Shown here: piece after piece, positions 18,301-24,300 of the stretch
Numbering within the stretch: position 1 is the stretch's first letter
How the letters are laid out: each line of letters opens with the position of its first letter
NCBI RefSeq assembly: GCF_041146795.1
Contig: NC_135170.1
Span: 31,421,533-31,485,532, forward strand
DNA length: 64,000 nt
Direction of reading: 5' to 3'
Origin: Maylandia zebra
Lineage: Eukaryota; Chordata; Actinopteri; Cichliformes; Cichlidae
Program-made: the position numbers and the translations under genes
The notes under the pieces: generated by a model
Database searches by the model: none
What the model saw: only the letters and a program-made list of their open reading frames with translations
Told to the model about the DNA's origin: nothing

Positions 18301-21300
18301 GGAGTGCAGCGTGTCCTTCAAAATTATAGAAACTTGACAAATTATCAACAAGTATCTATAAGTCAAGCCCATAAGAAATAGTTAAAAAAACATCCAGCAA
18401 AGACTTGACAACGAGCATGAGAGATACATCTTGCGCTCCAGCTGATCCATCTACTGTTCAGTCTCACAAGAAATGGTCTCAGTGGAAGAGTGGCTGTCAA
18501 GAAGTCATTCTTATCAGTAAACCATCCTGCATTTCATCCAGTGGCGTTTGGGATCTTGTCAAAACATTATGTACGCAGAAAAGTACCAACAGATTTTGAT
18601 CCATCATGCAACACCATCTGATTGGCAATAGTTTCATTTTTCAGGACGACAATGATTCCGAACGCAAAACCAATGCTGTAAAAGCATACTTGGATAGAAA
18701 ACACACAATGGAACACTATCAGCCATGGCCTCAACAGAGCCTGGACCTCAACCTTACTGAAGACATGAGGGGTCATCATCAAAAGGCAGTCAACATCCAA
18801 AAAAGAATGTCCTTTAAGAAGCCTGGAGAACTACTCCTGAGGACTACTTAAAGAAATGACAAGAAAGCTTGGCTAAGAGAGTCCAGGCTCTAAATAAAAA
18901 AAAATAAAAGTGGTCACAACAGGCTTGAAAGTCAATGTGACTTTCAAGCCTGTTAGAATTGTACAAACTCAGTTTTTGCCTTATATCCTCTAATTCCATG
19001 TGCTTCCACCTATTTCCTGTTTTCCTGGAAAAATATAAAGTGATGAGAGGTACCTTAGGACTTTTGCAGGGCATTATATTTTACAGAAAATAAGGAAAAA
19101 GCATAATGAAAGGATAATAGCTCCACTTTATGATAGCTTACCGCATTCCACGTAATACCATATTGATTTTAAAATGCCTGGGCTGGTGTCTGTGCTTCTT
19201 TCAAAATATATTGTGTTCTGTGTCACAGTCTCTGCACAGCTCCACCTCACCTGAAGTCAATGGCACTCAGTCCAATCAGCATGCCAGTCAGCACTGTGGC
19301 CTCCTCTCTCAATATAATGGCACCATCATCATAGAACCTCCTGCCAAGTAAAGAGGTGATTATCACTTCCGAATTTCTAGTTATCATACTGAGTATTTAC
19401 ATTCATTTTCATAGGAGTAAAACCCTGTATATAGAAGCGATGTTTCGTATTGAGACGCTGAATGTGAAGTGAAGGAAAACAGGACTGGGGATCATTTTAA
19501 ACCAAAGGTTTAGTTTAAATTAAGAATCCAGTCAAACCTTGTTGTTCTTGTGTCTCTGAGAGCAGTGGACACATATTCAGAGAGACGTTTCTCCATCAGC
19601 GCCACTCGAATCCACGCCCGGCCCTGTAGGACGACGCATTAGCGAGTGGGAACAGAGGACCTTTTCTCACACTCATCCGCACACAAACAGACACGCACAC
19701 ACACTAGAGTGCATACAAATCTCCTTGCCTTGGCTCGTGATGTGCTGATGTTCTCTATGTTTTCGATGCTGGCGATGCAGTTGTTCTGCACCTTGCTGCA
19801 CGCCAGCCGGATGTATTCCCAGAAGCTGCGCTGTCCATCTGAGCTGAACCAGCTGCCAGAACCTGGTTTAATATTAAAACACACCAATCAATCATTTGTG
19901 TTCTGACAGCAAGTGAAACTAAAATATGCACCCACAGCAACAATCCAGCTGACCATTTTATGGCTTTTTGACGAGAATGCCTGCTGCATTTTTATTCCAA
20001 ATATATTTCGACTGTTTCACAATGAAAGTCATATTAACTTTGTCCATCTTTCCTGTATGTTACCTGCAGTGTTACCTTTGAAGCGGTGGCTGAGGATGTG
20101 CTCTAAAATGGCAGCAAAGTTGATAAACTCCTCAGATGAGTCATCTATGGGCTCTGCTGTGTACTTTTCGAGGAGAGTCTTTACGGAGAATCTGAAATAG
20201 AAGTGCACCGAGAAAGAAAAATTAGACAAATACTGCACACTTTGATGGCAATGTGTGAGGGGTTTGGACTCTTAGTTGGCTGTGCTGCACATGAAATGCA
20301 GTTGTGTACTGTAACCAAGCAGACAAATGTACTACTGTATTTGAACAACAGCTGAGAGGATTTTTTTTCTTCTTTTTTTGGGAACTACGCCATCTTATCA
20401 TACTGAGGTCACCCCAATTGTCTTGTGTACTGCACAATGTACCCCTTCAGTGCTTTGGCAGTGTTATCATGAAAACAATACAATTAACTCCCTGTCTTTA
20501 CAGCCTTTGTGCGTGCTGTGCTTCCAGGTCCCTTTGGGTCTTGTCTCTCTGAGGGACCGACGAGCATGAAAGAATGATCAAATAATTCCCTCCCCCTTAT
20601 CTATACATTGTGGTGTGATCTATTTAGGGCAGCTGCTGGAGCTTTAGCTTGGCTTTTGACCTCACATGCTCACCCCACCGGCTGCACCACAGAAGGAACG
20701 CTATGCAGCGTGCATGTTAGGAGCGGGCATCCAGGCACAGGCTCGGGCGGGCTGCCTCGGCTTCGATGGGCAACACTAGCATCACAGAGGGCAAGACTGC
20801 CCTGGCAGTGGGAAACACCTCCATAGCCAGGGGAAAGACTACAGTCTCCTTAGGCAACTCCTCCATCTTCAGGGGAGTGACCACCACCTCCATGGGAGAT
20901 TCCACCATCCAAAGGCAAAAGACGACTGTGGCTCTGGGACGGGCCAGCTTCAGCCGGGGAACCACTACCACCTCCTTCCGTAAAGCCTTGACGTCCAAGC
21001 GGAGGAACACCTAAATGGAAAGGACCCCCGAAGCCAGGGCTAAGACACCCAAAGCAGCCAAGCAGTCCAAAAAAAACTCTAACAATGAGTGGAAAACTAC
21101 ATTTTCGTCAAGCAAAACCTCCTTCACCAAAGGGAGGGTTTCTATCCTGAGGAATAAGTACACCATCTCCTGGGGTAAATACTCGATCTCCTGGAGCAGA
21201 ACCACCACAATTTTGGGCAAAACCAGCATAGCAGTGGGCAATACCTCTGTTTCACGAGGAGAGACTACAAGCTCTCTCACCACCCTGACCTGCACCCATG

Positions 21301-24300
21301 GGACCAAGTCTGTGTCTGTGTTCAAAACCACTCTCGTCAGGGGCAAAGAAACGCATAGCAACATCTACTGGGATTTTCACACTTGAATCCTGCACATACT
21401 TAAAAACCCATGGATATATCTATATGGTCTGTTTTAGAAGGTCAGTAGTGATTCAAAATCAATAAAAAGAGCTGCTATGTCTATGATGTGTATAAAAAAA
21501 TGATAATGACCTGCAGATCTAATAGGTTCGCAATCAAAAGCGAGCCGTCCCATTCCCAAAGTAGTGCTGAGCATGTTATGCAAATGTGACATTGATGAAA
21601 TGACGATTTATGGTGTGTTGACTTGGCAGGGAGGGGATGTGTGTGATGTATGTGGAGACAGAAGAGTATGTGTGTGCTCTTCATCAGCACTTTTCTCCTG
21701 CATGTTGTGCATCAACACGTCCGCATCGTTGGTTTGAATGTGGTATTTTTTTCTGCTGATAAGACTGACTGATACTTCACATTTCCATAACTAAGCTCCC
21801 ACACTGCAAATCCAGTTTTCACCCCCAAGACTGTAAAGGTTGATCGATGTAACAGTGCTTATAAAAGTAACATGTCTAAACACTGATGAGCTTGACTGTT
21901 TTGTATGTAGACATTTCAAGATCTGTAACACATTAAAGGGGAGGAAAATAAAAACTTTGCACGAGTTCAAAAAGTTCAGCAAGATTTCAAATGGATAATA
22001 AACACCAACTGAAGGAACCACACCCATATTCCAAACGGAGGGACGGCACAAATCCAGAAGAGGTGCAATCAAAGCTTCACATACATATGGAGAACATGAG
22101 CACATTCAGCGTCCCTTTCCTTTAAAACAACACGGTACAACTCATTTCACATATGGTGCATACAGTTGTACACAAAGGGAACATCTTACAATCACAGGCT
22201 ATAGGGAACAATGGCTCAGAAGAAAGTGATGTCACCACAGACTGTCCTCTTTGCAACAATGTCTCCTTCAACCGTCCGGTGTCGTCGTGGCGCTGGGACA
22301 ATCGCTTTACTGTCCCAGTCCCCCCAGATAGGCTGTGGCCACCTACGGCTGCCTCTGTCCATTCACAGGGACACATGGGTGGTATGTGGCCTTCCAAAGC
22401 CCACGTTGAAGAGCTCAACGAAGGCATTATGCGACACGGGGGTCGCACTATCCACGCTTAGCATTCTGGTCCACTCTGGATTGTAGCTGATGTTACTATT
22501 ACTCCCGAGGGCTTGCAGAGCATAGAGTGCTGCATGAGTGTGCGATGCTTTGCGTCTAGTGAGTCCCGAACCCTGCCGTCGAATCTGGGTCAGGAAGACA
22601 AGCTTCTCCTCAATGGGCAACACCAGCTTCACGGAGGGGAAGACAGCCTTAACCCTGGGCAACACCACAATAAAGAGGGGGAAGACCAAGCTTGCCATGG
22701 GGAATTCTTCCATCACCCGGGGCAGGAGCACAACATCTCTGGGCTCCTCCACTATCACCAGTGGGAAAACCAAGATCTCGCTGGGCAGTGCGTCCTTCAG
22801 CAGAGGTACCACCAGCACCTCTTTCCGGAAAGCCATCTTCCCCAAACGCAAGACGCTCTAGATGAGAGAAGACGGCATCACGGGGTGGGGGGACTGACTC
22901 AAAATAAGAATCATCAGAGAGGACGTATGGATAACACGACGGAATCAGCACTGAGAGCAAAAACTGGATTAAATTTACTTTTCGAGCCTTGACTTTGTCA
23001 GGTCACTTTGGATTTATCAAAGAAACAGGTTAGTGGCATCTGAATTTTGTCTGATAAAATGTTTGAAAAACCATGTAGATCAGCAGATTAATGGATAATA
23101 GATCCAGAAATCCAGAATGTTAGGCTGAATCTCTTCAAGTGTGTTCTCTATTTCAGCTGGGCAGTAAAACTGCTTTTGCTGAATAAAAAAAATCCACTTG
23201 GTGGGTATTGCGAAATAAGCACAAATATTGTGTGTTGGGACCGGGGGCGACAGCTACGATTTAGCTTCACAAAATAATCGGCTACATACTACCTGATGTT
23301 GTCTAAAGGGATCCCATCAGGAAGAAAAGTTAGAAAATTTGAAATGTACTAATCTGTCAAAAATATGAGATAATGAGTGAACAGTAAATCGTATTCACCC
23401 AAATTCACAGTACAATTCCTCTTTGTGATGCTTCCAAGTCAGAAAAATGCATTACATCAAATCTTTTCTCACTGTGCAGAGCCTAGATGCCATGGAAACC
23501 CAAGCAGTGGGTCTGGACGCTCAGTATACGAACCAACATGTAACAGCTTCTTGTTAGCAAAAGTTACAGCATTTAAAATCATAAAAACAAAATATCAACA
23601 GCTGTAAAAAACCTGTCTGACCTAATAATGTGAGAGCAACGTTATCTTAACAGGAATATTATAACAGATGATTGTAAATTAACTGAAGTCCTTTGATCTG
23701 AAGGGGAATCTCTGGCGTGCCTCAAATGCAAATGGATGGAGTGGAATAGCAACATGTTCTTGGTACGATTTGACACTGAAAAACAACTGCAGGGCCTTCT
23801 GACAAGCTTCTTTTGTGCAACCTCTCACTCAGCCTGGATCAATGCCAAGCACACTCTCAACTCTTGTTAAATGCCCTCTTGTTCTCCTTTCTCACCCCTC
23901 TACTGTACTTACAAACTTGCGTTTGATCCGCAGCACGACACGGGATAACCAAAACTGCATTCATCAGCAAAGATGTCTAACCTAAAAACACAAAGCTTCA
24001 CGTTAACTTTCTCGACTTTCATTTTTATTTATTTTCCCTCACATGCATTTCCCTGACTACTTTCTCTGTCTTCTTATTTCTGTCTCTGTCTTCTAGCCTT
24101 GGCATAACCAGCAGGATCAGATGACACAGGTGAACTCCTCACTGGCCGAAGCATTGCACAACGCCAGCCAGTGCTGTGTTTATCATCGTGGACTGTCGGG
24201 GGAGGCGTCCTGCACTGGACTGGCATGAAAAAGAAAAGGCTTTGTGCTCTGAAGAATATTTCAAATCACAATTTGGGCCAAATCCTCAATGACGAAAAAA

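Follow-up and report, generated by a model that had tools for sequence, protein, structure and literature searches.

The window, i.e. the whole 64,000-nucleotide stretch of Maylandia zebra DNA that was analysed, carries rundc3a on its minus strand, and three small ORFs lie on the opposite strand within the first intron of this gene. Two of them, here called A and B, had been reported in a preliminary description as nested antisense in this intron, and exon mapping agrees with that placement. The mapping, done with a human query, places exons 1 and 2 as listed below, with the remaining exons reaching about 16.1 kb on the minus strand. The features of the locus are as follows.

28134-28028, minus strand: rundc3a exon 1 (exon mapping)
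20192..28027, minus strand: rundc3a intron 1, within which the plus strand carries ORFs A, C and B (bounded by the end of exon 1 at 28028 and the start of exon 2 at 20191)
from 20191 downward, minus strand: rundc3a exon 2 (exon mapping)
20766..21014, plus strand: ORF A, 82 aa, putative Zwilling-A-type protein with a heptad repeat and a pI of 12 (ORF, selection, and A-type homologues P0007, P0008, P0009 from Menidia, P0012 and P0016 from Salminus)
21015..21386, plus strand: ORF C, 123 aa, same heptad repeat, probable Zwilling-B and second cistron (homologue P0015 in Arctogadus; single full genome match)
21461..21466, plus strand: AATAAA, candidate poly(A) signal of an A+C transcript (consensus match only; 76 bases from the last base of C to the first base of AATAAA, by coordinates)
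22204..22612, plus strand: conserved stretch upstream of B, a possible promoter, enhancer or 5' untranslated region (matches upstream of P0010 and P0011)
22613..22861, plus strand: ORF B, 82 aa, putative second zwilling-type gene with its own conserved clade (B-type homologues P0003 from Electrophorus, P0004 from Alosa, P0010, P0011 from Dallia, P0013 from Cirrhinus, and P0014)

The preliminary description had recognized a pair of ORFs only. The A/B pair is real, but a related third ORF, C, situated directly behind A, had been overlooked. The ATG of ORF C starts at the base following the TAA of ORF A, in the same frame. From residue 27 onward, ORF C carries a heptad repeat with a clear period of 7, as in A and B, and it matches both of them by tblastn. 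When the genome of the fish itself was searched with ORF C, one full match (ORF C itself) was obtained, and B and A were matched weakly, at E <= 1. There is no out-of-frame ATG between the start codons of A and C, but this is unremarkable as 2.6 ATGs would be expected in any frame. The stop codon of ORF B is also directly followed by an ATG, and that frame closes after 11 residues.

In an annotated Menidia menidia protein, P0009, the N-terminal part corresponds to rundc3a exons 2 and 3 translated from their antisense strand. The nesting is thus shared by Menidia. P0009 itself is a gene model fusing rundc3a antisense sequence with a zwilling ORF, and many homologues have similar gene-model ends. 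Elsewhere in the window, the ORFs at 46283-50772 (plus strand), 35136-35417 (minus strand) and 33120-33386 (plus strand) resemble, in this order, stretches of ddx42, of strada and of a RING protein of the rnf113a type.

Selection on ORFs A and B and the age of their duplication

ORFs A and B are old, coding, conserved and under selection. Both have 82 codons and align without gaps on the plus strand at 20766-21014 and 22613-22861, just as had been described, and the codon count given earlier was reproduced exactly: 24 of the 82 codons are identical, 30 are synonymous and 28 are replaced. The nucleotide differences between the two ORFs are distributed as 25, 15 and 45 over codon positions 1, 2 and 3 (n=85, chi-square P 0.00027). 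The Nei-Gojobori dN/dS ratio is 0.18 in the sense frame (dS 1.58, dN 0.28) and at least 0.43 in the other five frames: 1.2 and 3.2 in the two remaining frames of the sense strand, and 1.65, 0.43 and 2.4 in those of the antisense strand.

A total of 54 of the 82 residues are identical, while scattering the substitutions at random on A retained a mean of 33 and a maximum of 45 identical residues in 20,000 trials, and scattering them from B retained 43 at most. In addition, the likeness of A and B ends where the ORFs end. Over five 50-base steps within the ORF, ungapped DNA identity was 0.60-0.78, against 0.20-0.40 over the six steps flanking it, and the piece matched by blastn covers 20763-20987 at A and 22610-22834 at B. 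The low sense-frame dN/dS, the failure of any trial to reach 54 and the confinement of the likeness to the ORFs together indicate purifying selection since an old duplication. The earlier claim of selection at the protein level, in this strand and this frame, is thereby substantiated.

One could argue that an antisense ORF or an RNA, rather than the sense frame, is the target of selection. Antisense frames are partly open over A/C (117 aa) and B (157 aa), and dN/dS is 0.43 for the antisense frame whose codons coincide with the sense ones. However, the sense value of 0.18 is clearly lower, and part of the sense signal carries over to an antisense register that is in phase with the sense codons. 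Moreover, the database homologues are of the sense protein, and no Rfam match was found at gathering cut-offs in the window. We therefore consider selection on the other strand or on an RNA very improbable.

It is even harder to credit that the ORFs are a transposon- or minisatellite-derived repeat with a coding look by chance. The internal period of 7 residues would fit such an origin, but within the 962-Mb genome the A and C queries found single copies besides one another. With ORF A as the query, there were two places at E <= 0.001, namely A and B. No tandem array was detected over A or B at a score of 40, with one weak 21-base row inside C, and the proteins are conserved across teleosts.

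The age of the duplication was assessed from a tree of 14 rows, i.e. the window ORFs A and B plus 12 homologues, some with masked tails. A single branch (support 100/99) separates six A-type from seven B-type rows, with 12 differences fixed between the two sides, and the Albula row was counted as neither type. This bears out the old duplication that had been proposed. As the A-type is present in Salminus (Otomorpha) and Menidia (Euteleosteomorpha), and the B-type in Alosa (Otomorpha) and Dallia (Euteleosteomorpha), the duplication must be older than the split of these two groups. The B clade in the tree spans shad to spiny-rayed fishes.

Probable membership in the Zwilling family

The protein searches gave 3 matches among 236 candidates, 13 among 4356 and 1 among 52, with 13 distinct homologues overall. 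The species-named ones come from eight species, Electrophorus voltai, Alosa alosa, Albula goreensis, Menidia menidia, Dallia pectoralis, Cirrhinus molitorella, Arctogadus glacialis and Salminus brasiliensis, all of them teleosts; this count covers the species-named homologues, with P0007, P0008, P0010, P0012 and P0014 standing outside it. For six of the eight, the assignment comes from a taxonomy look-up; Electrophorus and Cirrhinus are likewise teleosts. The homologue of ORF C, P0015, was found in one species only, Arctogadus glacialis.

One homologue, P0016 from Salminus brasiliensis, is annotated as "zwilling" in its source record (80% identity across 24% of the 206-aa query, E 2.8e-15), and its first 50 residues are of the A-type, matching ORF A. 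Zwilling-A and Zwilling-B are, according to the title of Schaefer and Brosamle (2009), myelin proteins of teleosts that are encoded by a single bicistronic transcript. In PMC8060510, ZWIa and ZWIb are described as teleost-specific and were quantified in purified zebrafish CNS myelin, while no orthologue of either was found in mouse myelin; zwilling is not mentioned in section 25 of that source, which deals with the transcripts of oligodendrocytes. The name Zwilling for the present ORFs rests on one annotated record (P0016) and one title. The homologues from the three protein searches included no zebrafish entry, and thus neither ZWIa nor ZWIb (UniProt B9UZF4/B9UZF5).

Most likely, ORFs A, B and C belong to the Zwilling family, which is described but little studied. 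Like Zwilling-A and -B, the locus has teleost-restricted homologues, one of them named zwilling, and two related small ORFs that abut on one strand. It differs in that there are three ORFs here and two proteins in the published title, so one of the three is extra, whichever pair was published. Within the parts of the literature that the search reached, we recognized no further work on Zwilling proteins beyond PMC8060510 and the 2009 title, and no mention of a third zwilling-type ORF, be it the A/B paralogue or C.

The preliminary description had regarded the ORFs as an undescribed family. In its favour, no Pfam family reached the cut-off where bits are listed, and most homologues are unnamed or "hypothetical". 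We regard an undescribed family as quite improbable, as one homologue bears the name of a published teleost myelin protein family. Thus, of the earlier interpretation, the old, selected coding pair and its antisense nesting stand; the unknown family, and the restriction to a pair, do not.

Protein properties and a possible role in myelin

The three predicted proteins are basic: the pI is 12.0 for both A and B and 10.5 for C, with 13, 15 and 21 K+R versus 2, 1 and 6 D+E in A, B and C, respectively. They are rich in S, T and G and contain 0, 0 and 1 cysteines, and inspection by eye revealed no long hydrophobic stretch. N-myristoylation at the conserved MGNTS start was considered and set aside, as residue 6 (I/F) misfits the pattern.

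The heptads pair into 14-residue units. For ORF C, AlphaFold predicted an antiparallel beta meander with seven strands of 11-12 residues, spaced 14 residues apart, so that each 14-residue unit would provide one strand and a turn. The best model had a pTM of 0.63 and a pLDDT of 79.6, with pLDDT values exceeding 90 across most of residues 61-120; the input had two alignment rows, and the five models scored 79.6, 72.2, 53.4, 31.0 and 30.8. No fold was obtained for ORF B (mean pLDDT 45.8, pTM 0.13, 14 alignment rows). Fold searches returned general barrel and sheet likeness only.

A profile of 12 family members matched YadA-type heads in the PDB (2yo0 at 2.4e-5, 2yo3 at 9.6e-5, 1p9h at 0.0019 and 2xqh at 0.024). 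None of these matches remained in either of two full column shuffles, while one shuffle preserving the 14-residue phase retained 2yo3 (0.0029), 2yo0 (0.012) and 1p9h (0.079). The likeness therefore depends on how residues are arranged inside the repeat, and composition by itself does not account for it. The Pfam cut-off for PF05658, the YadA head repeat, was not reached (13.6 versus 25 bits for A; no match row for B or C), and 3 of the 12 family members matched it, with a best E of 0.091. In NCBIfam, ORF A matched BimA (0.0014) and YadA (0.0021), both far below the cut-off. The YadA-type heads (PF05658; SadA 2yo0, YadA 1p9h) share with the present proteins a 14-residue repeat and glycines seven apart. 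However, the 82-aa protein here has no signal, stalk or anchor, and while those heads form a left-handed parallel beta roll, the C model, from its two-row alignment, has its 12-residue strands in an antiparallel meander, and the B model has no fold. The sober reading is convergence on a glycine-spaced beta repeat.

As the proteins are basic, have no long hydrophobic stretch and are reported from myelin, the simplest mechanism would be that of a cytoplasmic binder of acidic lipids which aids membrane apposition. We infer that they function as basic membrane-binding proteins of myelin. They would be made in myelinating glia and stay cytoplasmic, may form or join a beta sheet, and could bind the acidic lipid head groups of the myelin membrane, thereby helping to hold its cytoplasmic faces together, as MBP does. 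The binding of MBP to negatively charged head groups is mentioned in PMC8060510. MBP is likewise small, very basic and located in myelin, but this is a works-like comparison only; regular heptads distinguish the zwilling-type proteins, and no relation in sequence was noticed.

Fish and mammalian myelin do not have the same protein content, and among the myelin components named in PMC8060510, Zwilling is one of the few that are teleost-only. With three conserved ORFs instead of two, probable cistrons that naturally abut in a nuclear gene of a vertebrate, and a repeat whose predicted beta fold can be tested, the zwilling locus offers a small and tractable case for the origin of new myelin proteins.

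Proposed transcript arrangement and upstream sequence

ORFs A and C look like a bicistronic unit, and C is probably Zwilling-B. Upstream of B, the sequence at 22211-22612 matches that upstream of P0010 on a contig from another fish (81% in translation, with two window stops inside), and the sequence at 22204-22434 matches that upstream of P0011 from Dallia (65%, in a different reading frame from the P0010 match). The whole 22204..22612 stretch is single copy in its own genome. Sequence upstream of A is likewise conserved. Since this upstream conservation, in the case of B, falls in more than one reading frame, it is more readily explained by regulatory or untranslated sequence than by additional protein.

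We favour, with a probability of about 0.8, a teleost zwilling locus antisense in rundc3a intron 1, in which A and C are two cistrons and B is a second, separately controlled gene. A and C (Zwilling-A and Zwilling-B) would be translated from one short transcript, and ORF B would be a second zwilling gene under its own control. Alternatively, the published bicistronic twins might be A and B, carried on one long or spliced transcript, with C as the extra, unlisted ORF. A and B are on the same plus strand, 1.6 kb apart, and are far more alike (67%) than A and C, which would suit the name "twin". However, the position of C directly behind A has the look of a compact bicistronic message, AATAAA follows soon after C, and a conserved stretch of its own precedes B. 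We thus consider A and B as the twins unlikely.

The reading with A and C as cistrons can be extended, tentatively and with more doubt than confidence, as follows: the three-gene locus would be older than the split between the main groups of teleosts; its product would be a myelin-specific, fish-born 14-residue beta repeat, convergent with bacterial adhesin heads; one message would carry two cistrons; B would be a paralogue, glial or other, that has so far gone unlisted; and the whole locus would lie antisense in a neuronal gene.

Sites of the SOX motif ACAA[AT]G are present upstream of B at 22172, 22208 and 22256. They were rejected as a sign of glial control, as four such triplets within 100 bases occur in the window when 1.9 would be expected under uniform placement. 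Between C and B, TATAAAAG is present at 21860 on the plus strand, and might be a promoter of a B transcript by consensus match only.
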